DNA from: Cupriavidus sp. AU9028
GTDB lineage: Bacteria; Pseudomonadota; Gammaproteobacteria; Burkholderiales; Burkholderiaceae
NCBI RefSeq assembly: GCF_019795295.1
Contig: NZ_JAIMCG010000007.1
Span: 1-64,000 of the forward strand
DNA length: 64,000 nucleotides
Direction of reading: 5' to 3'
The translations under genes and the position numbers were made by a program. This document shows positions 3,037 to 28,545 of the stretch, one piece after another; positions within the stretch are counted from its first letter, which is position 1, and the number at the start of each line of letters is the position of its first letter. A model generated the notes under the pieces. The model was not told the DNA's origin and did no database searches. It saw nothing but the letters and a program-made list of their open reading frames with translations.

Positions 3037-3121
3037 GCCCGGGTGGTGAAACAGGTAGACGCAGGGGACTCAAAATCCCCCGCCGCAAGGCGTGTCGGTT
3101 CGAGTCCGACCCCGGGCACCA
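3037..3121 (+). tRNA. tRNA-Leu, anticodon CAA
   Basis: An 85-base class II tRNA including an encoded CCA. The acceptor stem GCCCGGG (3037-3043) pairs with CCCGGGC (3111-3117), followed by discriminator A and CCA. The anticodon stem GGGGA/TCCCC encloses CTCAAAA, giving anticodon CAA, which reads UUG. A long variable arm CGCCGCAAGGCG and a T loop GGTTCGAGTCC complete the structure. Its 3' 54 bases are duplicated at 18592-18645, marking it as the attachment site of the island downstream. The gene itself stays intact. Confidence 0.96.
3068..3121 (+). other. attL: 3' end of tRNA-Leu, left boundary of the island
   Basis: These 54 bases, from the anticodon loop to the CCA end, recur identically at 18592-18645. 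Sequences diverge on both sides (GGGG before and TCAG after here; CCCA before and CGAT after at the other copy). Integration of tyrosine-recombinase elements into the 3' end of a tRNA typically leaves exactly this kind of direct repeat. Confidence 0.9.
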
Positions 3122-3226: not shown

Positions 3227-3246
3227 ACGCGGCGCGAGCCTCACTT

Positions 3247-3831: not shown

Positions 3832-3833
3832 AA

Positions 3834-3935
3834 ATGACGCGCAAGACCACACTCAGCATCCGCCTGGATGATGATCTGAAGCAACGTTGGCAGGCACTTT
3901 GTCTTCGCCAAGGCAGCACGCCCAGCGACGGCCTG
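3834..3935 (+). pseudogene. Truncated ribbon-helix-helix (CopG-like) regulator
   Basis: ATG 3834 starts MTRKTTLSIRLDDDLKQRW, a typical ribbon-helix-helix beta strand and first helix, followed by a short helix (ALCLRQGSTPSD). After about 34 residues the frame becomes low-complexity and unlike the family, which normally runs on through the second helix and a tail. Although the frame stays open to 4439, this looks like a 5' fragment joined to foreign sequence. It follows the replication-protein remnant as in ICE gene order. Confidence 0.5.
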
Positions 3936-4068
3936 CGACTCGGACAGCAAGCTGTTCGGGGCGGAAGCTCGGCAAATTCCGATACTCCGGCCAGCACAAT
4001 CAACTGCCTCTGCATGTGTGCCACAGTGATAAACTCCCGGCCGTCTTTATCCCGCTTTCCCATCCGAG

Positions 4069-4413: not shown

Positions 4414-4435
4414 ATCGAACCCAGAACAACAAAGA

Positions 4436-6478
4436 ATGAAGCTCACCCAACAACAACTCGAAACCCACCTCTGGGGCGCGGCCAACATCCTGCGTGGCAA
4501 GACCGCTGGGCAGGACTACAAGAACTACATCCTGTCGCTGATGTTCTACAAGCGGCTGTGCGACCAGTGGGAGAACGAGGCCGACGTTGCTATCGCCGAG
4601 CAGGAGCGCCAGCAGGGCCGCAGCTTCACGGAAAAGGAAAAAGCCGTCTTTCGCAAACGCGGCGAGCACCGCTATTCCATCCCCGAAGGTAGCCGCTGGG
4701 GCGATGTGCTGGCCGCTTCCACCAATCTCGGCGAAAAGCTCACCCAGGCCATGAAAGCAGTGTCCAACGCCAACGACGAACTGCGCGGCGTGTTCACCGT
4801 GGACTGGGCGCAGCCCGCGCCCGACGGCAGCGGCAAACCGCTCATCCCCAATGAAGTCGTCCACGCGCTGATCCAGCACTTTAATACGCACGATCTTTCC
4901 AACGCCAGCGTGCCGCCGGACGTGCTGGGCCACGCCTACGAATACCTCATCAAGCAGTTCGCCGACGACGCGGGCGCGAAAGCCGGCGAGTTCTTTACCC
5001 CGCCGGAAGTGGTGGACACGCTGGTCCGCATCCTCGAGCCGCAGCCCGGCGACTCCGTTTACGACCCCACCTGCGGCAGCGGCGGCATGCTGGTGCATTC
5101 GGCGGATTTCCTACGCGAGAACGGCCACCACGCCACCGCTGCCCAATACTTCGGACAGGAGATGAATTGGGGCAACGCCGCCATTGGCAAGATCAACTCC
5201 GTGCTGCACGGGCTTGAGGCCGACATCAAGGCGGGCGCGAGCACCATCACCGACCCGGCGTTCAAGGACAGCGCGGGCCAGGTGCGCAAGTTCTCGCTGG
5301 CGCTGGCCAATTTCCCCTTCTCCGACGAGTTTTGGTGGCTCAAGCCCGAACAGCAGACGGACGACAAGAAGAAAAGGGACAAGCTCAAGAAAGAAATCTT
5401 CGGCAAGGAAGGTTTCAAGGATGCCTATGGCCGCTTTGGGCGCGGCACGCCGTTCAAGGCCCCGCCCGCCGGCTACGGCGATTACGCGTTCATCCTGCAC
5501 ATCCTCGCCTCGCTCAACGAGCACGGCCGCGCCGGCATCGTCTGCCCGCAGGGCGTGCTGTTTCGCGGTCAGCCGGAGGTGGAGGAGGAAACCGGCGAGT
5601 TCGACGACGACGGAAGCCCGAAATTCAAACGCCGCAAGGCCGACGACGAGCACCTGATCCGCCGCGCGCTGCTGGAATCGCGCCTGATCGACGCGGTGAT
5701 TTCACTGCCGCTCAATGTGTTCTACGGCGCGGGCGTGCCCGCCTGCCTCTTGATCCTGCGCAAGCAGCGCCCGCCAACGCGCCACGACAAGGTGCTGCTG
5801 GTCTATGCCGCGCGGCATTTCCGTGAGCTGTCCAATCAGAATGAACTGCGCCCGCAGGATGTGATGCGCATCCTGGTGCATGTTCAGGCGTATGGCGACG
5901 CGGCGAAGGTGCCCAAGCTAGTGGCGCAGCACAGCGGGCGCATCCGCGAGCAGATCAATGCACGCGAGCACGACGAGGTGGAGCGGCTGGAAGCCGAATA
6001 CGCCGACGCGGCGGCGCGGCTGGTCTGGCTGGAAACCAAACTGGCTGAGAAGCAGGCCGAACTGCCCAAGATCAGCGCCAAGACCGCGAAGGACAAGGCC
6101 GAGGCGGCCATCCAGAAATTGAAAGCCCAGCGTGACAAGGCAGCGGCAAAGATCGCCGAGCGCGACGAGAAGATCGCCGAAGCGCGCCGCCGCGCCGAAG
6201 ACGATCGCCGCGATGTGGAAGCCGTGGGCCAGGAACTGGGTGCGCTCTACGGCGATGCCGACGAACTGCTCAAGCACGCCCGCGTCGTGGACATTGCCGA
6301 GATCGAGGAAAACGAGTTCAACCTCAACATCCCGCGTTATGTGGACACCTTCGAGCCGGAGCCGAGGGTAGAGGTGAAAGATGCGCTGAAGGCGCTGGCT
6401 GATGCAGAGAGCGCCACCGCCACCGCAGAAAAGGAACTGAAACAACTGCTGGAGCGAATCGGATATGTCGCTCAGTAG
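4436..6478 (+). CDS. hsdM: Type I restriction-modification system methyltransferase subunit HsdM
   Basis: Protein of 680 residues that forms the modification core with HsdS and methylates adenine N6 using S-adenosylmethionine. The N-terminal HsdM helical domain begins at once (QLETHLWGAANILRG). SAM-binding motif I P-T-C-G-S-G-G lies at residues 211-217 and catalytic motif IV reads NFPFSD at 292-297 (an N-x-P-F variant, as is common in type I enzymes). Residues about 510-620 are a long charged coiled coil rich in Ala, Lys and Glu, which makes this protein longer than the classical 500-residue HsdM. It is the first gene of hsdM-hsdS-hsdR; hsdS overlaps its last 14 bases. Confidence 0.95.
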   Translation: MKLTQQQLETHLWGAANILRGKTAGQDYKNYILSLMFYKRLCDQWENEADVAIAEQERQQGRSFTEKEKAVFRKRGEHRYSIPEGSRWGDVLAASTNLGEKLTQAMKAVSNANDELRGVFTVDWAQPAPDGSGKPLIPNEVVHALIQHFNTHDLSNASVPPDVLGHAYEYLIKQFADDAGAKAGEFFTPPEVVDTLVRILEPQPGDSVYDPTCGSGGMLVHSADFLRENGHHATAAQYFGQEMNWGNAAIGKINSVLHGLEADIKAGASTITDPAFKDSAGQVRKFSLALANFPFSDEFWWLKPEQQTDDKKKRDKLKKEIFGKEGFKDAYGRFGRGTPFKAPPAGYGDYAFILHILASLNEHGRAGIVCPQGVLFRGQPEVEEETGEFDDDGSPKFKRRKADDEHLIRRALLESRLIDAVISLPLNVFYGAGVPACLLILRKQRPPTRHDKVLLVYAARHFRELSNQNELRPQDVMRILVHVQAYGDAAKVPKLVAQHSGRIREQINAREHDEVERLEAEYADAAARLVWLETKLAEKQAELPKISAKTAKDKAEAAIQKLKAQRDKAAAKIAERDEKIAEARRRAEDDRRDVEAVGQELGALYGDADELLKHARVVDIAEIEENEFNLNIPRYVDTFEPEPRVEVKDALKALADAESATATAEKELKQLLERIGYVAQ

Positions 6479-7709
6479 AAACCTCTCCGGCTGCCAAGTG
6501 TTCCATCCGTCGGAACTACCGACGGATTGGGACTGCGTGCCGTTGAAGGATAGGCTTGAACTGCTCTACGGGCGTGCGCTGAAAGAAGAAATCCGCAAAC
6601 CCGGCGACGTGGATGTGTTCGGATCGAATGGCAAGGTTGGCAGCCACAACGAGCATTGGCTTGACGCGCCGGGCGTACTGGTCGGTCGCAAGGGAACGGT
6701 CGGCGCTGTTCACTACACCGACAAACCGTTCTGGCCGATTGATACGACTTACTACGTCAAGCCGACAGGCGATGACAAGCTTCGATACCTGTTCTATCTG
6801 CTCGAGCAACTGCCATTGAAAAGTCTGAACGCCGCTACGGGCGTGCCGGGACTGTCGCGGCGCGACGCCTACGCGCTGCTCGGTGCGTTCCCGCCGCCGA
6901 ACGAGCAAGCCGCCATCGCCCGTGTCCTGGATGCCGTGGGTGCGGCGATTGATCGGGCGCGGGAGGCTGCGGCGCAAGCCGCCGAAGTCAAGCGCGCGCT
7001 CGCGCAGGAACTTTTCAGCAAGGGAACGCGCGGTGAACCGCAGAAGAAAACGCCGGTCGGCTTCATCCCAGCGTCGTGGGAAGTGAAACCCGTGAACGCG
7101 GTCGTCACGAATTTCGAGTATGGCCTGTCGCTGCCAATGCACCTCAAGGGCGCGACACCCATCCTACGCATGGGCAACATCCAGCAAGGCGATGTCGTGA
7201 TGGATGACTTGAAATATGTCACCCTCCCGGATGCCTTGGTTGACCGCTATCTATTGAAACGCGGCGATGTGTTGTTCAATCGCACGAACTCGCAGGAGTG
7301 GGTCGGCAAAGTCGGCATCTATCGCACGGATGCTCCCGCCGTTTTCGCGTCCTACCTGATTCGCCTGCATCCGGATGTTGCACAGGTAGACAACTACTAT
7401 CTCGGCCAGTTACTCAATTCCTACAACGCACAATGCCGCATAAAGCGGTTTGCAACGCCAGGCGTGCAGCAGGTCAACATCAACGCGAAGAATCTCGGCA
7501 AGGTGCTGATTCCCGTGCCGGTTGGTAGCACCGCGTTGGATGAACAGCGTGAAATCGCAGCAGTGCTGGAAGCCGCCGATGAGCGCAGCCGTTCTTACGC
7601 GCCAGTCATTGCGGCGTTGAGCCAACTTAAAAAATCTCTGATGCACGACCTGCTTACCGGCAGTGTCCGCTTCGATCCCGCGCTGTTCCCGCAGGAGGCC
7701 AACGTATGA
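6465..7709 (+). CDS. hsdS: Type I restriction-modification specificity subunit HsdS
   Basis: Protein of 414 residues with two target-recognition domains separated by a conserved helix. TRD1 covers about 15-145 and ends in SRRDAYALLGAFPPPNEQAAIARVLDAV. TRD2 starts near 195 (GFIPASWEVKPV) and ends in a second helix near 355-400 (ALDEQREIAAVLEAADERS). The two halves read different DNA half-sites, so the recognition sequence is bipartite and cannot be read from sequence. ATG 6465 lies inside the hsdM end after GGAGCG at 6451-6456, and the stop overlaps the hsdR start as ATGA, so translation is probably coupled. Confidence 0.94.
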   Translation: MSLSRNLSGCQVFHPSELPTDWDCVPLKDRLELLYGRALKEEIRKPGDVDVFGSNGKVGSHNEHWLDAPGVLVGRKGTVGAVHYTDKPFWPIDTTYYVKPTGDDKLRYLFYLLEQLPLKSLNAATGVPGLSRRDAYALLGAFPPPNEQAAIARVLDAVGAAIDRAREAAAQAAEVKRALAQELFSKGTRGEPQKKTPVGFIPASWEVKPVNAVVTNFEYGLSLPMHLKGATPILRMGNIQQGDVVMDDLKYVTLPDALVDRYLLKRGDVLFNRTNSQEWVGKVGIYRTDAPAVFASYLIRLHPDVAQVDNYYLGQLLNSYNAQCRIKRFATPGVQQVNINAKNLGKVLIPVPVGSTALDEQREIAAVLEAADERSRSYAPVIAALSQLKKSLMHDLLTGSVRFDPALFPQEANV

Positions 7710-10700
7710 GCGAAGCCGGTTACGTCGAATTGCCCATTCTGCAATGGCTCTCCGGACACGGTAGCGCCACGCCCGGCGACAAAGGGCTGGGCTGGACTTA
7801 CCGCGACGAGCCCGCAATGGCTGACTTCAACCGCCCGCTGGCCGACCCTCTGGTGGAGGAACTGCTGATCGCGGCCATCCTGCGCATCAACGATCACGTC
7901 ACCACGCCGGAGCAGGCGAAGCTGGCGGTGAAGGCGCTGCGCACCACGATGGACGCGCCGGACCGGCTCACCGCCAACCGCGAAACCCTCGACCGCCTGC
8001 GCGACGGCGCGAGCGTGGAACTCGTGCCCGGCGAGGGCGCGCGCACCGTCCACTTCATCGCCTTCGAGCCGGAACGCCAGCACCTCAACGACTACACCGC
8101 CACCAACCAGTACCGTGTGCAGGGCGTCAAGCAATGCAAAGCTGACACGGTGTTGTTGGTCAACGGCATCCCGCTGGTGGTGGCCGAATACAAGAGCATC
8201 ACCGCAAGTGGCGCCGAATGGCCGGAAGCGGTCCGCCAGTTGCACCGCTACCAGCGGCAGGCGCCGCAGATGCTGGTGCCCAATGTGTTCTGCGTGGCGG
8301 CGGATGAGGACACCTTCCGTTACGGCACGGTGCTGTTCCACGACGCGACGAAGGACGACATCGAGCGTCACCTCGACACCTGGGGGCCGTGGCTTTCGCG
8401 TTACCCGGACGTGAAAGGATGGTGGAACGAGCCCGAGGCCGACAACCCGGACGATCCGCTGGAAAGGCCGGTCAAGGCCCTGCTGCGCTTGAAGCCGGCA
8501 CAGGTGCTGGACTTCTTGCAGCACTTCACCGTGTTCGAGACCAAGAAGGGCAAGACCGTCAAGAAGGTGGCGCGCTACCAGCAGTTCGAGGCGGTGAACG
8601 ACATTGTGGACCGCTGCCTTGGGCTGATTGGCAAGTCGGTGAGCGCGCAGGATCGCACCGGCCTGATCTGGCACACACAGGGTTCGGGCAAATCACTGAC
8701 GATGGTGTTCGCGGCCTACAAGCTGCGGCGGCAGGCGGTGCTGACCAACCCGACGGTGTTGATCGTGGTGGATCGGCGCGACCTGAAAACGCAGATTTCC
8801 GACGACTTCGACGCCTGCGACTTCCCGAATGTGCGCAAGGCAATGGGCGTGCAGGACTTGAAGGCCATTCTCAAGCAGCGCGAGCGGGGCACCTTCGTGA
8901 CGACGGTGCAATCGTTCCAGCAGATGGGCGACCTTGCGCCGCTGGATGACGACAACATCATCACCCTGGTGGACGAGGCGCACCGCTCGCAAAAAGGGGC
9001 TACCGCCGAGAGCTACGCGATGACGATGCGGGTGAAGCTGCCCAACGCCTTCCGCTTCGGACTGACCGGCACGCCGATTGACCGCACCATGACCAACACC
9101 CACCGCGATTTCGGCCCGGTGGTGGACGGCCAGCAGGAGCGTTACCTCAGCTATTACGGCATCAAGCGCGCCATCAAGGACGGCGCGACGCTGGAGGTGC
9201 ATTACCAGCGCGACCGCGTGCCCTTCATCGTGGACGAAAAGACGCTCAATGTCGGCTTCGAGGACATGTGCAAGGAGATGGAGGTCGAGGACGAGGAAGC
9301 CAAAGACCTGATCCAGCGGCAGCGTTCGCAATGGAAGGAACTGGCACGGCATCCGGATCGCGTGGAGATTGTGGTCGGCAAGGTGCTGGAGCACTTTCTC
9401 ACCTATCCCGATCCCAACGGTTTCAAGGCGCAATTGGTTGGCGTAGATCGCACCGCCTGCGCGCGCTTCAAGGATGCGCTGGACGCCAAGCTAAAGGAGA
9501 AGGGACTGCCGCCGGACTGGTGTGATGTCATCATCTCCGAAGGCCAAAACGACGATCCTGATCTGGCGCGCTTTCACTACGGCAAGCAGAAGCAGGACGA
9601 GTTGATCGACTACTTCAAGCTGACGCCGAAGCAGTGGGAGGATTACAACCGCGAGGCTTTCGGCGAAGACACCGGCAAGTGGCGCCCCCCGCTGAAGATC
9701 CTGATCGTCTGCGACCGCCTGCTGACCGGCTTCGATGCACCCATCGAACAGGTGATGTATCTGGACAAGCCGCTGCGCGACCACAATCTGTTGCAGGCCA
9801 TCGCACGAACCAACCGCCCGCTGCCGGCGATGAACAAACGCACCGGTGTGGTGGTGGATTACTTCGGCGTGTTCAGCAATCTGGCCAAGGCGCTGAACTT
9901 CGACGAGAACATCCGCGAGGAGGCGCTCATCGACTGGGACAAACTGCGCGCCACGGTGCCGGGCGAGGTGGCGCGCTGCATGGAGAGCTTCAAGGGCATC
10001 ACGATTGCCGACACGCGCGAATGCCTGCTGGCCGCGCTGCGCGCGATCAAGGATCCGGACGCGGCCAAAATCTTCGAACACAACTTCAAGAGCCTGGAAC
10101 GGCTTTGGGAGGCGGTATCGCCCGATCCCGTGCTCTACGAGCACCGCTACACCTACAACTGGTTGTGCAGTGTGTATATCGCTCATCGCCGCCGCCAGTG
10201 TGGCGCGGCGCAGCGCACCACCTTTGGCGAGTTGTCGGTCAAGACTCGGGAACTGATCGAGCAGAACACCACGTTCATGGAGATCGCCGATTCCCTGCCG
10301 GTGTTCAAGATCGACAAGGACTACGTCAGCAAACTGGAAGAGCTGCCTACGCCTGCGGACAAGGCGGCGGCGCTGGAAGCCATCTTGACCGCCGAACTGG
10401 CCGAGGACGACGGCAGCGGATTCACCTATCGTCATTTGGGTGAACGCCTCGCGCGCCTGAAGGCGCAGAAGGACGCCGCCGACAAGGCCGCCGAAAAACG
10501 CCTGAAGGAATTGCAGGACATCGCCGACGAAAAGGCCAAAGCCGACGAAGAGCCCGCGCGGCTGGGCCTGACGCAGCCCGGTGAATATGGTGTCTTCACC
10601 GTGCTGCGCGAGTATTCGGCCAACGAGGACGAAAGCTATCTGGCCGATTGCGCGCGGCGCATGGTGGCGCATTTGCGCGGCAATCGGTTGTTGGCGGTGG

Positions 10701-10864
10701 GTTGGAGCAATTCCAGGGGTGGAAGGATGCGCGTCGAACAATCGCTGCTGGCCGAATCGTGGAACCCGGCCTATGCGGGCTTGGGCTTCGATGCGGACGA
10801 CGCCAATCCGCCCTTCCTCGCACACGCAGTGGATGAACTGGTGAACAGCGATGGCCTTGGCTGA
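7706..10864 (+). CDS. hsdR: Type I restriction endonuclease subunit HsdR
   Basis: Protein of 1052 residues that translocates and cleaves unmodified DNA. An N-terminal PD-(D/E)XK nuclease shows D-T-V-L-L-V-N-G-I-P near 148 and catalytic E161-Y-K163. The superfamily 2 motor follows: Walker A G326-S-G-K-S330 (preceded by WHTQ), DEAH box 423-426 and T-G-T-P near 455. The helicase C-terminal part contains D-R-L-L-T-G-F-D-A and Q-A-I-A-R-T-N-R. The tail from about 905 is Lys/Glu-rich coiled coil. All catalytic residues are present, so it looks functional. ATG 7706 overlaps the hsdS stop by four bases. Confidence 0.95.
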   Translation: MSEAGYVELPILQWLSGHGSATPGDKGLGWTYRDEPAMADFNRPLADPLVEELLIAAILRINDHVTTPEQAKLAVKALRTTMDAPDRLTANRETLDRLRDGASVELVPGEGARTVHFIAFEPERQHLNDYTATNQYRVQGVKQCKADTVLLVNGIPLVVAEYKSITASGAEWPEAVRQLHRYQRQAPQMLVPNVFCVAADEDTFRYGTVLFHDATKDDIERHLDTWGPWLSRYPDVKGWWNEPEADNPDDPLERPVKALLRLKPAQVLDFLQHFTVFETKKGKTVKKVARYQQFEAVNDIVDRCLGLIGKSVSAQDRTGLIWHTQGSGKSLTMVFAAYKLRRQAVLTNPTVLIVVDRRDLKTQISDDFDACDFPNVRKAMGVQDLKAILKQRERGTFVTTVQSFQQMGDLAPLDDDNIITLVDEAHRSQKGATAESYAMTMRVKLPNAFRFGLTGTPIDRTMTNTHRDFGPVVDGQQERYLSYYGIKRAIKDGATLEVHYQRDRVPFIVDEKTLNVGFEDMCKEMEVEDEEAKDLIQRQRSQWKELARHPDRVEIVVGKVLEHFLTYPDPNGFKAQLVGVDRTACARFKDALDAKLKEKGLPPDWCDVIISEGQNDDPDLARFHYGKQKQDELIDYFKLTPKQWEDYNREAFGEDTGKWRPPLKILIVCDRLLTGFDAPIEQVMYLDKPLRDHNLLQAIARTNRPLPAMNKRTGVVVDYFGVFSNLAKALNFDENIREEALIDWDKLRATVPGEVARCMESFKGITIADTRECLLAALRAIKDPDAAKIFEHNFKSLERLWEAVSPDPVLYEHRYTYNWLCSVYIAHRRRQCGAAQRTTFGELSVKTRELIEQNTTFMEIADSLPVFKIDKDYVSKLEELPTPADKAAALEAILTAELAEDDGSGFTYRHLGERLARLKAQKDAADKAAEKRLKELQDIADEKAKADEEPARLGLTQPGEYGVFTVLREYSANEDESYLADCARRMVAHLRGNRLLAVGWSNSRGGRMRVEQSLLAESWNPAYAGLGFDADDANPPFLAHAVDELVNSDGLG

Positions 10865-11618
10865 AGCGAATCGCACGGATGCGCCGCAACGCCTTCTGAT
10901 CGACGGGCAGGAGGTGGAATGGCGGCTCGTGCGCTCGGCGGCGGCCAAAAAGCTGCGGATCAAGGTCGGGCCGGATGGCGTCAAGGTCGTATTGCCGGAA
11001 GGGCGCGACAGCCGCGAAGCGGCGGCTTTCGTCGCCGACAACCGCGCTTGGGTGGCCGAACAACTGGAACGTACACGCAAATTGCAGGCGGCGCGGCGCT
11101 CCGAAAAGCGCGAGGACGGTTGCATCGCGTTTCGCGGCGAAATCGTGGCGGTGCGCGTTGTGCGCCCCGATGAATGGCGCGCGCCGAACAAGGTGATGCT
11201 GGACAACGGCGCGATCACGATCATCTGCGCGCCTGGCAGCAAAACGCCTGCGGACCGTTCGCTGGAAAACTGGCTGCGCAAGCAGGCGCGAGAACGCATC
11301 AAGCAGCACATCACCGACATCGGAAAACGCCTGAAGCGCACACCGAACCGTATTTACGTGATGGGCCAGCGTACCAAGTGGGGCAACTGTTCCGCGCTGG
11401 GCAATCTGTCGTTCAACTGGCGACTGGTCATGGCTCCCGATTCCGTGCTGCGCTACATCGTTACGCACGAGATGGTGCATCTGGCCGTACCCGACCATTC
11501 ACGCAAATTCTGGCTGGCGGTGCAGAGCCTGTGCCCCGATGCGGAACGGGCGCGCCAGTGGCTGGTAGCGAATGGAAAGCGGTTGCAGACGGTGAAGTTG
11601 GGAATTGCAAATGGATAG
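10851..11618 (+). CDS. YgjP/DUF45-type zinc metallopeptidase coupled to the restriction operon
   Basis: Protein of 255 residues. The C-terminal half carries the DUF45/WLM-like (M48-related) signature: R-T-K-W-G-N-C-S followed by S-F-N-W-R-L and the zinc motif H206-E-M-V-H210, with L-x-V-P-D-H-S-R-K-F-W after it. The N-terminal half is a beta-rich region ending in a predicted helix. The start lies 14 bases inside hsdR, so it is the fourth gene of the operon. YgjP homologues are frequently attached to type I restriction operons, but their role there is not established; processing or turnover of HsdR is one possibility. Confidence 0.85.
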   Translation: MALAEANRTDAPQRLLIDGQEVEWRLVRSAAAKKLRIKVGPDGVKVVLPEGRDSREAAAFVADNRAWVAEQLERTRKLQAARRSEKREDGCIAFRGEIVAVRVVRPDEWRAPNKVMLDNGAITIICAPGSKTPADRSLENWLRKQARERIKQHITDIGKRLKRTPNRIYVMGQRTKWGNCSALGNLSFNWRLVMAPDSVLRYIVTHEMVHLAVPDHSRKFWLAVQSLCPDAERARQWLVANGKRLQTVKLGIANG

Positions 11619-11621
11619 GCA

Positions 11622-13166
11622 ATGAGCATCACGTACACCAAACTCCCTCTCAACCTCAACGACCTGCTGCGCCAACGCACGGTCGAGGGCGAACGCATCT
11701 AGTACAAGGCCGGTTGGAACCCGGACGCGAGATCCACACCCTGTGCGCCTTCGCCAACGACTTCGAGAACCCGGGTGGCGGCTACGTGGTGATCGGGCAG
11801 GACTGCGATGCCAACGGCCAGCCCGTCTTTCCGCCGGTCGGCCTGCCCGACAACCAGCCTGACAAAATTCAGCGCGAACTGCTGGCGCACTGCCAGTTGA
11901 TCCAGCCGCCGTATTTCCCGGTGTTAAGCCTTGAAGTCGTCGAGGGCCGCAACCAGATCGTGCTGCAAGCGCCGGGCGGGCAGACGCGCCCCTACAAGGC
12001 ACGGAAGTCGTCACTGCCAACAAGAAAACCTGGCGCTACTACATCCGCCGCTACAGCAGCACGGTCGAGGCCAAGGGCGAGACCGAACAGGAACTGCTGA
12101 GTCTGGCCGCCAAGGTGCCGTTCGACGACCGCTTCAACCAGTTCGCGCGCGTCGATGATCTTTCCAAGCCCTTGATGCAGGGTTTCCCGGAGGAAGCTGG
12201 CAGCGCGCTGGCGGCGAATGCGCCGGGGCTTTCCGCCGAGGCGCTGGCGCGTCAGATGAACGTGGCGGGCGGCCCTATCGAGTCGCCCTGGCCCAAGAAC
12301 GGGGGTCTGCTGTTCTTCAACGAAACGCCGGAACGGTTCTTTCCCGGCGTGCAGATCGACGTGGTCTGGTTCCCAGAAGGTGCGGTCGGCGACCGTTTCG
12401 ACGAGAAGATTTTCAAGGGGCCGTTGGCGCGGATGACGCGCGAGGCGCTGGGCTACATCCAGCGCAACTTTCTGCGCGAGACGGTCATCAAGCACCCCGA
12501 CCGCGCCGAGGCCACGCGGATCTAGAATTTCCCGTTCGCCGCCATCGAAGAGGCCGTAGTCAACGCGGTCTATCACCGTTCCTACGAGGAGCGCGAGCCC
12601 ATCGGGGTACGCATCAGCAACGATGAACTGACTGTCAGCTTCCCCGGCCCGGATCGCTCTATCCGGATGGAAGACCTGAAGGTGGGCCGTGCGGTCAGCC
12701 GTCGCTACCGCAACCGTCGCATCGGCGAGTTCCTGAAGGAGCTGGACATGACCGAGGGGCGCTCCACCGGCATTCCGAAAATCCTGAAGGAAATGGCGGC
12801 CAACGGCTCGCCCGCGCCGCTGTTCGAGACGGATGATGACCGGCGTTCGTTCGTGATCCGGCTGCCGAGGCATCCGCTGGCGCTGACGACCGACCAAGTT
12901 ACCGATTAAGTTACCGATCAAGTTACCCCGCAAGTTGAGGCGCTGCTGGTCCGGCTCAAAGGCGAAATGACCCGGCAGGCCCTGCAGGATGCCTTGGGAG
13001 TGTAGCATCCGCCGCACTTCCGGAAGACCTATCTGGCCCCGGCGCTGGAATTGGGTGTGATCGAAATGACCAAGCCGACAAGCCCAATAGCCGCAGCCAG
13101 CGATACCGGCTGACGGATGCAGGACGGCGCTGGCTGGCGCTGCGGCCCGATGAACGTTCGGGCTAG
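11622..13166 (+). pseudogene. Decayed AlbA_2/RecG-like ATP-binding protein
   Basis: Read across frames this is a full-length homologue of the putative DNA-binding/ATPase family with an N-terminal AlbA_2 domain (G-W-N-P...H-T-L-C-A-F-A-N-D-F), a central GHKL-like ATP-binding region (A-A-I-E-E-A-V-V-N-A-V-Y-H-R-S-Y) and a C-terminal winged helix. At least seven lesions break it: TAG at 11699-11701, a frameshift near 11725, a frameshift near 12000, TAG at 12523-12525 (in place of a conserved Trp), TAA at 12907-12909 (CAA to TAA in a repeated DQVT stretch), TAG at 13003-13005 and a frameshift near 13075. It starts three bases after the metallopeptidase stop, so it was once the last gene of the operon. 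Confidence 0.85.
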
Positions 13167-13955
13167 GCCCGGGCCGTCATGCGCTGTGGCACGCCATGAC
13201 TTGGAATGCAGCGGCTCCCATCTGACCCTTGCTCACCTCCAACCCGGAGACTCCGAGTGCGGGGCGCTAAGCGTAACTTCCTGTCATACCGAAGCTTCTC
13301 AAGCCAAATCCATGGTCGGAAAAGCTTGACAGCGGACATTTTTCATATCGGCCGGCAAATACCTCCGCGCTTCGCTTGGGCAACCCCTTCGGTTTCATCC
13401 CGCGTCCGTACTTGCCGGACTGGCTGCGGGGGCAGGCCCCGGCGGCTCCGCCTCGTTCCTTCCCCCTTGGCCGACAGGCTATGTGGCTTCCAGAAGCATC
13501 AAGGGTGAAGGCTTCGCCCGGGATCCTCACCCGTTCCCTGCGCTTCGCTTCGGGCTGCGGCTTCCGGTCCCGCCCTTGACGCCTCTTCCAGCCAAACGAC
13601 GTCGGTAGCAACGCTGTCAAGCGGATGACGGGTCAAGGGGTTGGTGCGGCCCGCAGCCCGCAGGGCGAGGACACGGCCCCTTGACGCGGCAGGAGCGCCC
13701 CACGCTATGCGCCCCGGGGGCAGGAGTCCGGGCCAGAGGCCCGCAACCCCTGCCCCCGAGGCTCCCGCCGGCGAGGGTGGAGAGTCCAGAGAGGCAAAGC
13801 CTCTTTGGAAACTGACTACTAGGCAGGCGGCCAATATTGCAGCCCATCGCGGATAAAACAAGACAAATTCAGCGCACGCCTTTTGGGCTACGCGTACCTA
13901 AATCCAAATACCCCTACCTCTTGTAAAATCAAGTTACCTACAGCAAGGAGACACC
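13167..13955. other. GC-rich stretch without a credible gene, inside the island
   Basis: Open frames on both strands have compositions unlike proteins (Arg/Pro/Gly-rich, no recognisable domain). The 11-base GCTTGACAGCG at 13324-13334 recurs inverted at 13612-13622, enclosing about 280 bases. A second GC-rich block at about 13640-13800 carries several short palindromes. From memory the sequence resembles conserved non-coding segments of ICEclc/PAGI-type elements, but this is unverified. The last 100 bases turn AT-rich and probably hold the promoter of the next gene (TGTAAAAT at 13922-13929 is a possible -10). Confidence 0.5.
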
Positions 13956-14189
13956 ATGGCTGGCGATGGTAAACGCGGGTTACCGCCCCACAAGACCATA
14001 TCGGATATCGAACGCAGCCGACGCGAGGCGGCCGTTAACTACGCGCGAGCGTCCGTCGGTTTAGAGGGTTTCTCGCTCAGTGAAGCAGATGAGGCTCACG
14101 CCCAGCGGTTCATGACGGGTGAGATAAGCCTGCAAGAGTTTGTACAGCCGCGCGCTGACGCGTTAGCACTCCCAAAGTCTTCGTCATGA
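13956..14189 (+). CDS. VbhA-like antitoxin domain protein, no partner toxin
   Basis: Protein of 77 residues; ATG 13956 follows CAAGGAG at 13944-13950. Residues about 22-62 read as three short helices, with R-R-E-A-A-V-N-Y-A-R-A-S-V-G-L-E-G and later A-Q-R-F-M-T-G-E-I-S-L-Q-E-F-V. This pattern matches the VbhA/antitoxin_VbhA family, which inhibits Fic AMP-transferases. A fic gene normally follows directly, but the next 250 bases contain no Fic motif (HPFxxGNG) and no gene. It is therefore an orphan or the remnant of a module. Confidence 0.65.
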   Translation: MAGDGKRGLPPHKTISDIERSRREAAVNYARASVGLEGFSLSEADEAHAQRFMTGEISLQEFVQPRADALALPKSSS

Positions 14190-14450
14190 CGAAGAAAGCT
14201 AGGATTTGGGGACTAGTGCAGGATAGGCTGTCGCCGGGTTTTGCACTACATGCGCCTTCGGCGGCTTAAACATGGCCGATATGCTGCGAGCGACCCGGTA
14301 TCGAATGGTCGATACCAGGCGGAGGTGGATAGCGGCCACGAATCGCTAAAAATTTGCCCATAGCCTCGGGCGAAATCAAGGAATCTGCCTGAGCTCAGGA
14401 TTGGATAGCCTTTATAGTCCGGTCATCGGGAAAAATAGGGAGTGAGGAAA

Positions 14451-17400
14451 ATGAAGAAGAAGAAGAACAAGCAAAGGGGTAAGAAGCCATTTTGCTCGCC
14501 GACTATGGGCCAGCAGTTGCCGGTTGAAATTCAGCGGACTATAGAACAACGTCAGAAAGCGCTTGAACAAGAGTTCCAGGCATCCTGCGGCCGAGTGCGT
14601 ACGGTCCTCACACGTATCCATCCCAATGACGCGCTCATGGCGCTCAACATCTCTAACCTGTGGGTGCCAAATCGCGCCAGCCACGTCAAGCACCAGCTAG
14701 CCTTCAGCATGCTTGTTTCCACGCCGGCTGACAGCTTCGCCCCCACCCGCATACAGACCTACGAGCAATTCGCCGAGTTTTGCAGCGCCCTCATTGAGGT
14801 CCTGCCCGATTTCCCCTCATTGGAGGACTACGTTCCGGAGGCAGACTGGGGTGAAGTGAAGGTCCTATTCGGCCACGAGCCGGTAGCCATCCTGCACGGT
14901 GGCCCCGTGCAGCGGATCGTCGACTTCATTGATGCATTCCGCATTTGTCATCGGCACAACTCCCAGGCCATGAAGGACCTAGAGTGCGCGATCCGCTTGC
15001 AAGCTGAGTTGCTGCGACTGATACCAAACAACGGCAGTGATCCAGAGGACGGCCCGTATCCCGGACACATCGAGGTGCCGCCAGTGTCCTTTTGGGAAAT
15101 TGGCGCGGCCGCCTTAATGCAGCTCTCAGTGACGCAGCGCATCGAGGCGGGCTACATCGCGGATTTGGGACAACCTACCTCTTGGAAGGATGCGAACGGC
15201 TTTGGCGACGCCGTGATGACCGGCGCGGTGTTGCCGTGGCTGGCAGTGCGCATCGAGGAGGGGGCGCCGCGCGCCATATCCCTGCTCGATTCTGCAACGG
15301 TCGTGATCGACGCGTGGGCTAAGGTTGCACCGGAGGCTCCAGACGAGCTCGCAGTTCGACTAGGCACTTACCTGGCGAGGCGAATCCCAAACCGCTCATG
15401 CCTGACCGGGCCGTTCGTGCTGCGGTCGCGCGGCGGAATCGTACCCGTGACGATCGCGGCGGCCCTTGTTGAAGGTGCGCATTATTTCCTGGTGGTACCC
15501 ATGTCTCCCGGCCAGCTGAACCAAGCCAACAAGATCGTGGCCGCGATGCGCCGCATCGTGCAGGATGCAGATTGGGGCTTACAAGTCATTGGCACCTCCA
15601 ACGGCTTCCAGCTCCGCGATGCGCAGGGCGTAGTACCAAAACCTGCGGCAGTGGAAATCATCTTGGTGCATACGCAGGTCTCTACCGGCCCTTCGATGAT
15701 CACACCGCCAAGTGCCGGCGCCCGCCTGATGAGCCTAGTAGATGCTTGTACGATCTTTGATTCGATCGAATCAGTGGATGAACTGGCACGGTTTTGGGAC
15801 TACGTCGACGGCCTGCGCAAGTTTGACGGCAGTTGGTTCAGCGACCTGGGCGATCTCTTCGGATCCTTCCGGGACTCGCATGCCCAGATTATTGAGGGAG
15901 CGTTAGTCCCGCACATGCTCGGACTGGATCCGCATTGGGGCGCCTCTTGGCGGTACGCCCAGCTCAGGGCTTTCTGGAAGAGGGCGCCGCTTGTGTTCCC
16001 CGACGAGGCCAGTGCTTGGACGACTCATGAGCGCGAGGGCGTGAGCTCGCTAACATATATCACTGCCAAGAATGCTCCCCGACTCGCTTGGTCATCAGTG
16101 CTTGGAAGATGCACGCTGCACTTCATCCTCGACGTCAACGCGGTCGGCCTTGAGCCCGAAGATGGTTCGTTACTCGAACTTTTCGTGCATTGCGCCGCAG
16201 ACAGCATCGCCGAACGAGCTGGGATCATTGCCCCTTTCCTGCAACTTCCGCTTCGGCGGGTGAATTTGCATTGCTTCAGCGCGCCCCATCTGCTGGCATC
16301 CGCAGGGGACGAGCAGACCCAGCATGCGATGACAATGCCGATCATCACAGCCTGGGACGAGACACCGGCCGGCGACTCAGACAGCTACGAAGCACGGCTA
16401 ACTGTCAACCTCGCGACACTGGTGCGAGACCTTGAGGATGCGGAGGACGCGCGCTTCGAAGTCACCTGCGCATTGGCCATCCTCGAGCGGCTCTTCGCCG
16501 TAATGGGCACCCCGATGCCTGACGACCTGAGACAGGCGTTGGAAGAATCGGCCGGCCGCCCACCACGCTTCACTCTTAGCCGGACGCAGCGCACGGTGGA
16601 CGTCCCCGACTTTACCCTGGCGCAAGTGCCTAGGCCGGAGGACTACAAGGTGGCCCGACGTGACTTGGCCATCCTGCTCAAAACGCAGGGCGTCGCGCCG
16701 GGGACTTATACACTGGAGGCTGCTAAGGCATTAATCAATCCGGCTCGCGCGGATTACCGGGATGCAGTACATCAGCGTATTCGTGAGTTGGATCGCGAAT
16801 CCTTGCTGCGATTTTGCGTTGACCAATACGACGCGCTGATCGCTTCCTATGATCGCGAGGAGCGTCGGATCAAGCAAAGTCTGCGTCACGAGGTGGACTA
16901 TGACCGGGAACAATACCTCGCGAAAGCCCACGAGAAGTTTGTCCGCGAGAGCAGGAATTACCGGTATCTGCTGGAAAGCGCACTCGTCCTGACTTCCCCT
17001 AAGCCTACTCCTATACGTACCGAGACAGCCCTTTCTATCCAAGCCATGGTGGACTGGCTCTTCGTTCTGTACGGCGCCAGCGACGTGCTGCACAACGGCA
17101 TCGACGTAGGTGGCCTGCGGGTCGACGATCAGTACGTCCCGGAGGTTTTCTACTCTGAGGTACGCGACGCGCAAGAAGAAATCTTCGCACGCGAAATGGC
17201 GGCCCTGCGGCTTGGTGTCAACGTTGCAGAAGAGGACAGGCTCACTACGGCATTGTCGATGGAAGCGTACCTTGCGATGCTCGACACAGCTTTCGCTAAG
17301 GACGTCCAATTTACTTACTCCCAGATGCTTCAAGTACTGTCGACACTAATCCTGTGGGTGTCGGTCGGCGGTGCGCCCGAACTGGCCTGCAGCTACGTCA

Positions 17401-18278
17401 GTGACCGTCAGACCATCGCGGATAGAGCTGTGGCGGCTCACCCCGACCTGCCGGTGGACGCGGCGTTGGCGGTGATCGAGTTCCTCCTGCTGAAACCTGA
17501 TCAAGTTTGGCGCTTAATTGGCAAGAACGTTGCTGAGCAAGATGTTCCGGTCTGGGAGCATTCTAAACGCGGCAGCCGCCACACCATCCGACCGCTGATC
17601 GAGTTGCCGAACGGCCGCATACTATGGGGCGCTGCGGCAGTAGGACGGGCCAAGCGCATCTGGACCGGCTCAATCTCGGCGGGCTACCTGCCCGCCGACT
17701 TTCAGTGGCCGGCGATTCGCGCTGCAGTCGGTCAACTGAAAAAGGAACTGGAAGATCGCCTCGAAGACCGCGCATACGAAGTTTGTTCCCGCGCGATGCC
17801 TTACGCAATTAAGGGGATCGATTTCAAGGACCGGTTTCCCAAACTACAGTTTCCGGACGTCGGCGACTATGACGTACTGGCATATCGGCCGGAAGAAAAT
17901 CTATGGCTCGCGGTCGAGTGCAAGTACAACCAGCCGGCTTTTTGCCTAAAGGACACGCGCCGACTACGCGATCGAATTTTCGGTGGCGGTAGTGAGCCCG
18001 GCCAATTTCGTAAGATCGAACGTCGGCGCGACTTCCTCATCCTGAACACAGACCAGTTGCGAGCCTTACTGGGATGGCCGCCACCCGCGAACAAGCCATT
18101 CTCGTTAGTAGAGCTTTACGTGTCCAAGGACATGCATTTTTGGCTGCGTTTCCCACCGTATGAGGTGCCAACGCACTTTGTGCAGATCGACACACTAGAC
18201 GCCTGGCTGCAATCCGCTGATACGTTGCGCGGCATCACCAACGCTGGCGTACCGGCACTAGACACAGGGCCCGCCTAG
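14451..18278 (+). CDS. Very large uncharacterised protein with C-terminal PD-(D/E)XK nuclease signature; candidate defence gene
   Basis: Protein of 1275 residues; I do not recognise its family. ATG 14451 is chosen because AGGGAG lies eight bases before it; an in-frame GTG at 14442 is the alternative. The N-terminus is a basic run of Lys followed by helical sequence. Residues about 790-900 contain a charged helical stretch (DREERRIKQSLRHEVDYDREQY). Near the C-terminus G-D-Y-D-V-L-A-Y (D1141) is followed after 14 residues by V-E1156-C-K1158-Y, the spacing and beta-hairpin context of a PD-(D/E)XK nuclease active site. No ATPase motif or signal peptide is visible. It stands alone as the last gene of the island, a usual place for single-gene antiphage systems. 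Substrate and trigger are unknown. Confidence 0.7.
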   Translation: MKKKKNKQRGKKPFCSPTMGQQLPVEIQRTIEQRQKALEQEFQASCGRVRTVLTRIHPNDALMALNISNLWVPNRASHVKHQLAFSMLVSTPADSFAPTRIQTYEQFAEFCSALIEVLPDFPSLEDYVPEADWGEVKVLFGHEPVAILHGGPVQRIVDFIDAFRICHRHNSQAMKDLECAIRLQAELLRLIPNNGSDPEDGPYPGHIEVPPVSFWEIGAAALMQLSVTQRIEAGYIADLGQPTSWKDANGFGDAVMTGAVLPWLAVRIEEGAPRAISLLDSATVVIDAWAKVAPEAPDELAVRLGTYLARRIPNRSCLTGPFVLRSRGGIVPVTIAAALVEGAHYFLVVPMSPGQLNQANKIVAAMRRIVQDADWGLQVIGTSNGFQLRDAQGVVPKPAAVEIILVHTQVSTGPSMITPPSAGARLMSLVDACTIFDSIESVDELARFWDYVDGLRKFDGSWFSDLGDLFGSFRDSHAQIIEGALVPHMLGLDPHWGASWRYAQLRAFWKRAPLVFPDEASAWTTHEREGVSSLTYITAKNAPRLAWSSVLGRCTLHFILDVNAVGLEPEDGSLLELFVHCAADSIAERAGIIAPFLQLPLRRVNLHCFSAPHLLASAGDEQTQHAMTMPIITAWDETPAGDSDSYEARLTVNLATLVRDLEDAEDARFEVTCALAILERLFAVMGTPMPDDLRQALEESAGRPPRFTLSRTQRTVDVPDFTLAQVPRPEDYKVARRDLAILLKTQGVAPGTYTLEAAKALINPARADYRDAVHQRIRELDRESLLRFCVDQYDALIASYDREERRIKQSLRHEVDYDREQYLAKAHEKFVRESRNYRYLLESALVLTSPKPTPIRTETALSIQAMVDWLFVLYGASDVLHNGIDVGGLRVDDQYVPEVFYSEVRDAQEEIFAREMAALRLGVNVAEEDRLTTALSMEAYLAMLDTAFAKDVQFTYSQMLQVLSTLILWVSVGGAPELACSYVSDRQTIADRAVAAHPDLPVDAALAVIEFLLLKPDQVWRLIGKNVAEQDVPVWEHSKRGSRHTIRPLIELPNGRILWGAAAVGRAKRIWTGSISAGYLPADFQWPAIRAAVGQLKKELEDRLEDRAYEVCSRAMPYAIKGIDFKDRFPKLQFPDVGDYDVLAYRPEENLWLAVECKYNQPAFCLKDTRRLRDRIFGGGSEPGQFRKIERRRDFLILNTDQLRALLGWPPPANKPFSLVELYVSKDMHFWLRFPPYEVPTHFVQIDTLDAWLQSADTLRGITNAGVPALDTGPA

Positions 18279-18591
18279 CATGCGGCCGAATAGGTGAGCG
18301 CAACCACCGGCTCAGATTTCCGCCACGACCTTATATGCAACCGCAGCTATGTCGCCGCTTAATCGATTGTTGCTGAAAGGAGCCTGGCGCGGAGTGGGGG
18401 GATCATAGTTAATACGCGCCGGCATTTACTCACCTGACACTGTACCGAAATTTCAGTACAGCACTGGTACAGCAACCAGTTTTCACCAATTCGTCCAAGG
18501 TACGGTAAGCTACTGACTAAACTAATTTTTATCTATCTCAACCTACGCTTGACTTCGCCTCACTTCCCTGTACGAACACGGTAAATCCCCA
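18279..18591. other. Right-end non-coding region of the island
   Basis: About 310 bases without a gene between the large protein and attR. Its last 150 bases are clearly more AT-rich than the surroundings. It contains the inverted copy of the left-end 13-mer (18438-18450) and further GGTACAG-like motifs, the composition expected of an att-proximal recombinase binding region. Confidence 0.6.
18438..18473. repeat. Arm-type repeats at right island end
   Basis: CACTGTACCGAAA at 18438-18450 is the exact reverse complement of 3214-3226 near attL. A further GGTACAG stands at 18467-18473 and a degenerate copy lies between. The spacing to attR is about 120 bases. Probable integrase arm or excisionase sites, inferred from position and repetition. 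Confidence 0.5.
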
Positions 18592-18645
18592 ACTCAAAAT
18601 CCCCCGCCGCAAGGCGTGTCGGTTCGAGTCCGACCCCGGGCACCA
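18592..18645 (+). other. attR: duplicated tRNA-Leu 3' end, right boundary of the island
   Basis: Perfect 54-base copy of 3068-3121 lacking the 5' half of the tRNA, so it is not a functional tRNA gene. It marks the crossover partner left by site-specific integration. Confidence 0.9.
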
Positions 18646-18779
18646 CGATACATCGGAAAGCCGTCCAACCCCGGCCATCAGGCTGCGCAGTGTCCGGCCT
18701 TGAGCGCCATGCGTTCCCGCAAAGCGTCGGGTCGGCACGGCGATTGAATCTGTTGCCTCGGCATGGCAGCATCGGGCAC

Positions 18780-19214
18780 ATGTCCGTCCCGCCCGATCGC
18801 CTCCTCCGTGACCTCGCCCGCCTGCGCCGCGTGCGCGACCGTATTGACCGCGACTACGCCCAGCCGCTTGACGTGGAAGCCCTTGCCAGCGCCGTCAATA
18901 TGTCGGCCGGCCATCTGAGCCGCCAGTTCCGGCTCGCCTATGGCGAATCGGTCTATGCCTACCTGATGACCAGGCGCATTGAACGGGCAATGGCGCTACT
19001 GCGCCGTGGCGACCTGAGTGTCACGGAAGTGTGCTTCGCGGTGGGATGCGGGTCGCTAGGGACGTTCAGTACGCGCTTCACGGAACTGGTCGGCGTGCCG
19101 CCCAGCGCGTACAGGCGGGATCCCGAAAGCACCGAAGGGATGCCTTCCTGCGTCGCCAGACAGGTAACGCGACCGGTCTGGAATCGAGAAGCGCCGCGAA
19201 ACGCGCCGGGCTAG
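18780..19214 (+). CDS. AraC-family transcriptional regulator (DNA-binding domain only)
   Basis: Protein of 144 residues made almost entirely of a two-helix-turn-helix AraC domain. The first helix-turn-helix is near residues 25-50 (LDVEALASAVNMSAGHLSRQFRLAYGES). The second is near 75-100 (VTEVCFAVGCGSLGTFSTRFTELVGVPPSAYR). There is no ligand domain, so it acts like stand-alone AraC proteins. ATG 18780 is chosen because the domain begins soon after and the upstream extension has no family resemblance. It precedes a VOC-family gene on the same strand by 85 bases, and this regulator/glyoxalase pairing suggests it controls that gene. Confidence 0.85.
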   Translation: MSVPPDRLLRDLARLRRVRDRIDRDYAQPLDVEALASAVNMSAGHLSRQFRLAYGESVYAYLMTRRIERAMALLRRGDLSVTEVCFAVGCGSLGTFSTRFTELVGVPPSAYRRDPESTEGMPSCVARQVTRPVWNREAPRNAPG

Positions 19215-19299
19215 ACTGGCTGCCGTCGTCAGGGGTGCGGGCAACCCCTCACGTTGTTGTCTCGTGACCACTATTCGCTGTCAACCGAGGAGCCTGATC

Positions 19300-19710
19300 T
19301 TGGACATCACCATTCACTCGACCTTCCTTCCCCATAGCGATCCTGAGGCTTCGCTGTCCTTCTACCGGGATACTCTGGACTTCGAGGTGCGCAAGGACGT
19401 CGCATTTGGCGGCAACCGCTGGATCACCGTTGGCCCGAAGGGCAAGCCGGACACTTCCATCGTGCTGTACCCGCCCAATGCCACGCCCGGCGTCACCGAT
19501 GAGGAAAAGCGGATGATTGCCGAGATGATGGCCAAGGGCACTTACGCCATGCTGCTGCTTGGCACGACCGACCTGGACGCCGCGTTCCAGCGCCTGCAGG
19601 ACGGCGATGCCGACATTGCGCAGGAGCCCACTGACCAGCCCTACGGCGTGCGCGACATGGGTGTGCGCGATCCCGCCGGCAACATGATCCGTATCCAGCA
19701 ACTGGCCTGA
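19300..19710 (+). CDS. VOC (glyoxalase/bleomycin-resistance) superfamily protein
   Basis: Protein of 136 residues. The start is taken as TTG 19300 because GAGGAG at 19287-19292 is correctly spaced and the fold begins immediately (DITIHSTFLPHSDPEASLSFYRDTLDFEV); a GTG at 19264 would add a tail with no counterpart. It shows the paired beta-alpha-beta modules of the vicinal oxygen chelate fold, ending V-R-D-P-A-G-N-M-I-R-I. It likely binds a divalent metal and a small electrophilic or dioxygenated substrate, or sequesters a toxin. The linked AraC gene is the probable regulator. Confidence 0.82.
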   Translation: MDITIHSTFLPHSDPEASLSFYRDTLDFEVRKDVAFGGNRWITVGPKGKPDTSIVLYPPNATPGVTDEEKRMIAEMMAKGTYAMLLLGTTDLDAAFQRLQDGDADIAQEPTDQPYGVRDMGVRDPAGNMIRIQQLA

Positions 19711-19759
19711 GACCAGCGCCCGCCGTCCGTCCGATACGGCGGACGGCTGCCATCAGCGT

Positions 19760-21106
19760 CTACCGAGTGGTGCCGAGCGCGCCGCCATAGGTTTCCACCC
19801 GCCGCCGCGACACCAGACGCGCCGGCACCAGCAGCGTCAGCACCGCACCGGCGACCAGACAGCCCGCCAGCAGATACATCCCGGAGTTCGTGCTCTGCGT
19901 CAGGTCCTTCAGCCAGCCGACCGCATACGGGCTGATGAAGCCGGCCAGGTTGCCCAGCGAATTGATCATCGCGATGCCGGCCGCGGCGCCGGTGCCGGCG
20001 AGGAATGCAGTGGGCAGGCTCCAGAACAGCGGCAGCGTGGTCATGATGCCGATGGTGGCCAGCGTCAGGCCAACCATCGCCAGCACGGTCCGGTCGTGCC
20101 ATAGCACGGACAGCACCAGCCCGACGGCGCCAACCAGCGCCGGGATGGCGATATGCCAGCGCCGCTCGCCGGTGCGGTCGGCACTGCGCGCGACCAGCAC
20201 CATGCCGAGCACCGCGAAGCCGTAGGGGATCGCCGTCAGCAGACCGATGTCGAGCGCGCCCTTGACGCCGGTCTGCCGGATGATGGTCGGCAGCCAGAAA
20301 CTGATGCCGTACAGCCCCATCACGAAGCTGAAGTAGATCGCGCTCATCATCCACACGCGCGGTGTGGCAAACACCCGGCGCACGGGCAGATCTTCCTTGT
20401 GCACCGCCTCCGCCGCGACGTTGCGCTCGAGCACCGCTTTCTCCTCGGCGCTGAGCCACTTTGCATGGCTGATGCGGTCGTCGAGAAAGGCCAGCACCCA
20501 CAGGCCGATCAACACCGAGGGAATGCCCTCCAGCAGGAACATCCACTGCCAGCCGGCCCAGCCGTTGTTGCCATCGAAGGTTTGCATGATCCAGCCCGAC
20601 AGCGGCCCGCCGATCACGCCGGACAGGGCGACCGCGGTCATGAACCAGGTCGTCGTACGCCCGCGGCGCTCGGCCGGATACCAGTAGGTCAGGTACAGGA
20701 TGATGCCGGGAAAGAAGCCGGCCTCGGCCACGCCCAGCAGGAAGCGCAGCACGTAGAACATCGTCGGCGTGGTGACGAACATCATCGCCGCCGAGATGAT
20801 GCCCCACGTGATCATGATCCGCGCGATCCACACGCGCGCACCCACCTTGTGCAGGATCACGTTGCTGGGTACTTCGAAGAGGAAGTAGCCGATGAAGAAG
20901 ACCCCCGCGCCGAGCCCGTAGACGGTCTCGCTGAACTGCAGGTCGTTCAGCATCTGCAGCTTGGCGAAGCCGACGTTGACGCGGTCCAGATAGGCGACCA
21001 CGTAGCACAGCAACAGGAAAGGAACCAGACGCCAGCTGACCTTGCGGTAGATGGCATCTTCAAAACCGACATCCGTGGCACGCGCCGTGGTTGAGGTGCT
21101 GTTCAT
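19760..21106 (-). CDS. MFS transporter, anion:cation symporter (ACS) family
   Basis: Protein of 448 residues with 12 predicted membrane helices. The early segment RLVPFLLLCYVVAYLDRVNVGFAK carries the family signature Y-x-D-R-x-N-V-G-F-A, and R-F-L-L-G-V-A-E-A-G-F-F-P-G-I follows in helix 4, both typical of tartrate/phthalate/glucarate-type ACS carriers. ATG at 21106 is preceded on the minus strand by AGGAGA. It lies 41 bases downstream of the SDR gene on the same strand and is probably co-transcribed. Together they suggest import and oxidation of a hydroxylated organic acid; the substrate is unknown. Confidence 0.88.
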   Translation of the reverse strand: MNSTSTTARATDVGFEDAIYRKVSWRLVPFLLLCYVVAYLDRVNVGFAKLQMLNDLQFSETVYGLGAGVFFIGYFLFEVPSNVILHKVGARVWIARIMITWGIISAAMMFVTTPTMFYVLRFLLGVAEAGFFPGIILYLTYWYPAERRGRTTTWFMTAVALSGVIGGPLSGWIMQTFDGNNGWAGWQWMFLLEGIPSVLIGLWVLAFLDDRISHAKWLSAEEKAVLERNVAAEAVHKEDLPVRRVFATPRVWMMSAIYFSFVMGLYGISFWLPTIIRQTGVKGALDIGLLTAIPYGFAVLGMVLVARSADRTGERRWHIAIPALVGAVGLVLSVLWHDRTVLAMVGLTLATIGIMTTLPLFWSLPTAFLAGTGAAAGIAMINSLGNLAGFISPYAVGWLKDLTQSTNSGMYLLAGCLVAGAVLTLLVPARLVSRRRVETYGGALGTTR

Positions 21107-21147
21107 GCTGTCTCCTGTGGGATGAGGCCGAGCAATCGGACACGCAA

Positions 21148-21906: not shown

Positions 21907-22088
21907 GGGTGTGTCTCCGTTATTGTGGTTTTCGGATTCGATGGCGCGAGGCCACTGCCGGAAACGATACACCGTCCACGCGGATACACCCAAGCGGCGT
22001 TACGCCTGCTCCCCGGTCCAGCGAAGGGGGTCGGGGCGTGTCTCCTTCAGCAGATCGCGACGACAACGCCCCGCGCCTTCGCGGCTGC

Positions 22089-27221: not shown

Positions 27222-27463
27222 GAGGTCCGGCTGCAAGGGCTGCCGCGGACCTGGATCGACGATGGCATGATGCCTGCGCGATGGGCACCGGCATCCGCCG
27301 CGGACTGGGTAGCGCGCGCGACCTTATAGCTTGCGGCGGACGATCGGCACAACACCCATCAAGAGGGGTGCGGATTTGCCGATAACCACCATCAGGGAGA
27401 AGGTGCGCACGGGGCAAGTCCGCTCGCGCCCGGTCTCGGCTCGATCCCCGACGCAGCCCTGGC

Positions 27464-27886: not shown

Positions 27887-27943
27887 TCCTGCTCCTTTTC
27901 CTGGATCACGATACGGACTGGAACGATGCGCGAGGGCTCGTCG

Positions 27944-28495: not shown

Positions 28496-28545
28496 GTCCA
28501 CCTCCGCGCGGGCGCGGCGCACGCAGCCCTCGCCTTGCCCGCCCT

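Follow-up and report, generated by a model that had tools for sequence, protein, structure and literature searches.

The window analysed here is a stretch of 64,000 nucleotides from Cupriavidus sp. AU9028 (contig NZ_JAIMCG010000007.1), and the gene in question lies on its forward strand at 14451..18278, where it encodes a protein of 1275 residues. With a probability of roughly 78% we place this gene, as a divergent member, in the Upx superfamily of single-protein antiphage systems; it is carried as cargo on a genomic island, and its product is probably a single-protein sensor-nuclease. Profile alignments show that residues 422-1215 are collinear with Upx, that the part from residue 661 onward is significant alone, and that the D-E-K triad is kept. 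Relatives were found in several mobile elements, and half of the loci surveyed lie near clear defence genes. An earlier note on this DNA had proposed an undescribed defence system. That claim has to be given up, since Upx is named, is covered by PADLOC and NCBIfam models and has a solved structure. Judged by homology this is not a new kind of system; what is new to the libraries searched is a divergent clade far below the cut-offs of the Upx models. The same note had also suggested that a large antiphage-type protein ends here in a probable PD-(D/E)XK nuclease, and this idea has fared better: homology supports it well and the neighbourhood less strongly.

The protein and its match to Upx

The gene and its parts are as follows.

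14451..18278, forward strand: Upx-type protein, 1275 amino acids (aa); open frame, relatives at 32-72% identity along nearly the full length, Upx profile match
14451..16430, forward strand: N-terminal region, residues 1-660; lowest conservation; proposed sensor or regulatory part (predicted function)
16431..17705, forward strand: middle region, residues 661-1085; homology with its counterpart in Upx (hhalign, slice against slice)
17706..18275, forward strand: C-terminal region, residues 1086-1275, probable PD-(D/E)XK nuclease; hhalign against the Upx C-terminal slice, conserved catalytic residues
17871..17873, forward strand: codon of D1141, the motif D (motif and conservation)
17916..17924, forward strand: codons of E1156-C1157-K1158, the motif ExK (motif and conservation)

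The reading frame ends with the stop at 18276-18278 and is open from either GTG 14442 (1278 aa) or ATG 14451 (1275 aa), and a GAGG stretch directly upstream of the ATG favours the latter as the probable start. Close to the C-terminus the residues read G1138-D-Y-D1141 ... E1156-C-K1158, exactly where the earlier note had placed them within this 1275-residue frame. The strict pattern GDxD-x(10-20)-ExK occurs once in the protein, whereas 1000 shuffles average 0.007 occurrences. The loose pattern D-x(8-20)-[DE]-x-K carries no information (8 observed against 4.3 expected, a number reached by 9.8% of shuffles). Better evidence than such statistics is conservation: D1141, E1156 and K1158 are invariant across all 14 proteins of a joint alignment, and D1139 is kept in 12. 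A chance motif is ruled out by the strict-pattern shuffles together with the conserved triad. Searched against Pfam, the protein matched no family up to an expectation value (E) of 1, and neither an ATPase domain nor a Walker A motif was found in it; among the other six family members the Walker A pattern matches once, in L004.

Close relatives at 65-72% identity come from Sedimenticola (L004), Pseudomonas yangonensis (L006) and Pantoea (L005), and distant full-length relatives at 32-36% are L002, L013, L014 and L015. As the frame of L005 is split in two, the joint alignment, the tree and all full-length family profiles from the second onward were made without it. For comparison we used six Upx-type proteins, namely L008, L009 and four plasmid proteins named by their similarity to L008, which alone exceeds the NCBIfam cut-off. 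For the Upx of Sinorhizobium the second of two annotated frames was taken, and it was excluded from the Upx identity means.

Single-sequence searches gave faint signals. The PADLOC Upx model matched the window protein at E 0.015 and the NCBIfam model at E 0.032, in the same relative position, and the best match in the Protein Data Bank (PDB) was chain 9wuf_A at E 0.23. Profiles gave a much clearer picture: hhalign aligned seven family members with the six Upx-type proteins over 764 columns (probability 99.6, E 4.8e-24), spanning family residues 422-1215 and Upx-type residues 415-1237. As controls, a reversed profile reached E 0.89 and the best of 20 shuffled profiles E 0.16. An earlier comparison of six family members with L008 and L009 had given a probability of 97.7 and E 1.7e-12. 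When the profiles were cut into slices, the middle region matched its Upx counterpart (probability 98.8, E 6.2e-17), as did the C-terminal region (96.8, E 2.2e-10), and crossed slices gave E 0.52 and 0.34. Since the middle slice is significant by itself, the match to Upx is more than a shared nuclease fold.

Searched against the PDB, the seven-member family profile found 9wuf_A at E 2.4e-6 and no other entry up to E 1; an earlier family profile had found it at E 2.3e-5, with one unrelated chain (E 0.3) up to E 5. Although deposited as 'Restriction endonuclease', 9wuf is by sequence a solved Upx, because its chain aligns at 2797 bits with residues 1-1272, all of L008, which itself scores above the Upx cut-off of NCBIfam. 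Together, the profile match to Upx and the retrieval of 9wuf_A lead us to reject the view that the protein has no known relative.

A Upx search of 398 genomes returned L008 over the cut-off and L009 as a clear relative below it (463 bits), and the same search weakly scored two genes of the present family, L013 (genome G278, E 1.2e-6) and L015 (G528, E 7.9e-4). By BLAST within a set of ten proteins, L013 is 23.6% identical to L008 over 450 aa (E 1.2e-7). The family shares with Upx (PADLOC PDLC02221, NCBIfam NF042954, PDB 9wuf) the layout of one large protein of about 1200-1280 aa, a long collinear alignment and the same D...ExK triad in the same place near the C-terminus. It differs in its low identity, its own group in the tree, an N-terminal half with no significant match, and a score of the window protein (11.4 bits, E 0.032) that does not reach the NF042954 equivalog cut-off of 1900 bits. 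In a midpoint-rooted tree of the shared part, the seven family members (support 91/99, below the tree tool's star) stand apart from the six Upx-type proteins (100/99).

Upx was reportedly first described by Gao et al. in 2020. Its structure is solved, but a trigger or mechanism was not found in the open-licence literature searched, which included PMC10855318 and PMC12629846. A clade that keeps the triad at about 14-18% identity shows which parts are constrained (175 columns are invariant across the seven family members), and it offers a comparison set for locating the sensor. The PADLOC and NCBIfam Upx models used here miss such divergent members.

Distribution and neighbours of the family

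The family is rare. Counting the window's own genome, full-length matches occur in 2 of 198 genomes of relatives, 3 of 369 of the class, 3 of 398 of the phylum and 3 of 399 of the order, sets that overlap. There are also fragments: in the set of relatives, a genome of the same genus (G056, L003) holds a short remnant with an internal stop, 44% identical to residues 919-984, and in the phylum set G215 holds a 21-bit fragment with stops. A search of E. coli genomes at the DNA level, which is blind to relatives this distant, gave no match. A phage-borne gene is not supported either: tblastn with the window protein or L013 matched nothing in phage records, the window protein hit nothing among PHROGs up to E 0.1, and two scans of viral contigs seeded from short peptide patterns returned nothing.

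One of 72,556 plasmid records carries a distant relative. This 892-aa protein of Lactococcus plasmid pFI430 (WP_014735040.1, annotated 'hypothetical protein'; L007 10897-13572) shares about 480 C-terminal residues with the family, the triad included, at 21% identity (E 8e-9; profile E 1.5e-12). It differs in having about 360 residues ahead of the shared part instead of about 730, and in lacking a PADLOC match; in the tree it forms a long branch of unsure placement. As only this part is shared, the C-terminal module may be combined with different N-terminal parts elsewhere, and the plasmid gene is a possible unnamed phage-resistance gene.

Selected neighbours were classified at eight loci, including the window, and clear defence genes lie near four of them. 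The pattern of consistent housekeeping genes outside mobile islands, which the earlier note would have taken as a refutation, did not appear. In the window a type I restriction-modification system sits on the same tRNA-bounded island. L004 has a ThsB TIR gene (E 2.7e-119) and another whose product combines ResIII and RE_endonuc domains; here the Upx-type gene has TraC on one side and DUF1525/TraU on the other (6846-18993), a cargo site inside the transfer region of an integrative and conjugative element. L006 contributes a full-length Avs3a, a DUF4917/PDC-S21 gene and TniQ/TnsD. In L018 a large NACHT gene resembling Avs1b and LmuA (2462-8433, reverse strand) is directly beside the Upx-type gene; its Cap4 match falls below the Pfam cut-off. 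After this NACHT gene comes a 481-aa protein with no Pfam or PADLOC match. A mobile context is also seen at L016, in the form of an IS66 transposase.

The neighbours differ among loci, with NACHT-type genes in two of the eight. Avs proteins are large NACHT/STAND ATPase sensor-nucleases in which a sensor is joined to an effector in one chain, a layout like that proposed here, and they are among the neighbours of the family gene in L006 and L018. Unlike them, the window protein has no ATPase domain or Walker A motif, and no homology was found between the two.

The N-terminal half and a proposed mechanism

Mean pairwise identity within the family rises from 34.9% (residues 1-660) through 43.3% (661-1085) to 52.1% (1086-1275), with the N-terminal part below the C-terminal one in 21 of 21 pairs. 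The Upx group follows a weak trend in the same direction (20.6, 21.0 and 25.1%; 9 of 10 pairs). Such a gradient would be expected of a fast-changing sensor coupled to a constrained enzyme, but is no proof of it. In the mechanism that we consider most likely, the protein would rest in an inactive state until its fast-diverging N-terminal half senses a signal of infection, possibly a structure or modification of phage DNA or a phage protein. The middle region would relay this signal to the C-terminal PD-(D/E)XK domain, which would cut DNA using metal ions held by D1141, E1156 and K1158, and the phage would be stopped either through cutting of its DNA or through killing of the cell. Given that the window protein has no Walker A motif, ATP is probably not needed, and because the neighbours change between loci, the protein may need no partner.

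A number of observations weigh against placing the gene in the Upx superfamily as an antiphage system. The N-terminal slices do not match significantly (probability 4.5, E 0.009; residues 422-558, in the same register). BLAST of the window protein against Upx gives E 0.004 at best. Of the seven family proteins, a Upx profile built from two sequences recovered one (L013), and a family profile built from six recovered one of two Upx proteins. Up to E 0.1 the PADLOC Upx model matches L013 (E 2.2e-4) and L002 (E 6.8e-4) and leaves L014 unmatched. In the joint alignment, identity between family and Upx-type proteins is 14-18% by region, and the partial Sinorhizobium row reaches 10% over 161 columns. 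The C-terminal nuclease fold is probable, on homology and the motif, and the antiphage activity of the family is predicted from the listing of Upx as a defence protein together with the nuclease motif. As for the neighbours, the four loci of eight with clear defence genes (the window, L004, L006 and L018) are a raw count over selected neighbours. Only weaker 'PDC' candidates were seen in L005 (FRG/PDC-S15) and in L016 (SEC-C/PDC-S12). L017 has no defence gene among four neighbours examined, which are all housekeeping genes; it is flanked by an inositol monophosphatase gene and, on the opposite side, by mutS, with small unclassified frames between, and the sole neighbour examined in L015 is not a defence gene.

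In a different reading, the family shares the middle and nuclease regions of Upx but not its N-terminal half, and would be a defence system apart from Upx that answers to a trigger of its own. We hold this to be unlikely. In its favour, the N-terminal slices lack a significant match, no alignment with Upx was obtained by hhalign before residue 422, the two groups separate in the tree, and the Lactococcus protein shares only its last part with the family. Set against this, total lengths are similar (1237-1279 aa in the family and 1206-1272 aa in Upx-type proteins, the partial 787-aa Sinorhizobium frame excluded) and the full alignment extends back to residue 422 in the Upx register. Moreover, the absence of an N-terminal match is no surprise, because the Upx group is itself only 20.6% identical there. 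A sharper form of the same thought, which we find slightly more doubtful, is that the clade joins a Upx-like C-terminal module to an unrelated new N-terminal sensor, with the Lactococcus protein as a third combination.

The island around the gene

The 15.5-kb island that carries the gene, its last sizeable frame, has the features listed below.

3037-3121, forward strand: tRNA-Leu(CAA) gene (ARAGORN)
3068..3121, forward strand: left island end at the 3' end of tRNA-Leu(CAA); perfect 54-bp match to 18592-18645
4436..10864, forward strand: type I restriction-modification system (context); hsdM 4436-6478, hsdS 6465-7709, hsdR 7706-10864
10851-11618, forward strand: YgjP-like metallopeptidase gene, behind the type I system
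11630-12097, forward strand: frame with a Schlafen/AlbA_2 domain (PF04326, E 2.9e-6), after the type I system and the YgjP-like gene
13956-14186, forward strand: VbhA antitoxin gene (PF18495, E 1.2e-8), just upstream of the Upx-type gene
18592..18645, forward strand: right island end, 54-bp repeat of the tRNA-Leu 3' end; perfect match to 3068-3121

The 54-bp repeat and the hsdM, hsdS and hsdR genes bear out the position that the earlier note gave the gene, at the distal edge of an island with a type I restriction system. Its word 'solitary' also stands in the sense that no frame of at least 80 aa follows the gene before the island ends; the VbhA antitoxin gene precedes it. The frame behind the antitoxin gene is short.

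Sharing an island with hsdMSR, and the deposition of 9wuf as a restriction endonuclease, could suggest an enzyme that partners the type I system, or else a DNA repair nuclease outside defence. This is very unlikely: among the classified neighbours (selected) at the seven other loci there is no type I system, for which reason a functional link with it is thought improbable, and relatives in 3 of 399 genomes of the order, the window's own among them, are unlike the distribution of a housekeeping repair gene. If anything still less likely is that the gene serves no present function and is simply carried along with the island, an idea fed by the lack of a recognised integrase in the frames scanned and by damaged copies elsewhere (the G056 remnant with its stop, the split frame of L005) and countered by a fully open frame of 1275 codons, an intact triad and 65-72% identity along the length to gammaproteobacterial copies. 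These frames, at the left end of the island (3247-4439, forward strand), yielded no recognisable integrase, so that the island may be incapable of moving on its own.

The G+C content of the Upx-type gene is 59.0%, against 68.6% at 19249-30000 beyond the island. As a value at least 0.05 below the flanks is found at only three of seven other loci (L004, L015 and L017), such a drop is no general mark of the gene. Each query with an island flank matched in some form, frequently over part of its length, in all 60 of the genus's genomes searched; in the only genome compared (G001) the flanks lie on different contigs, so that no empty site is shown. At least three of the 60 genomes (G014, G030 and G052) carry the tRNA end a second time as a partial copy, at a distance of about 6 to 25 kb, a sign that the site may be in repeated use.

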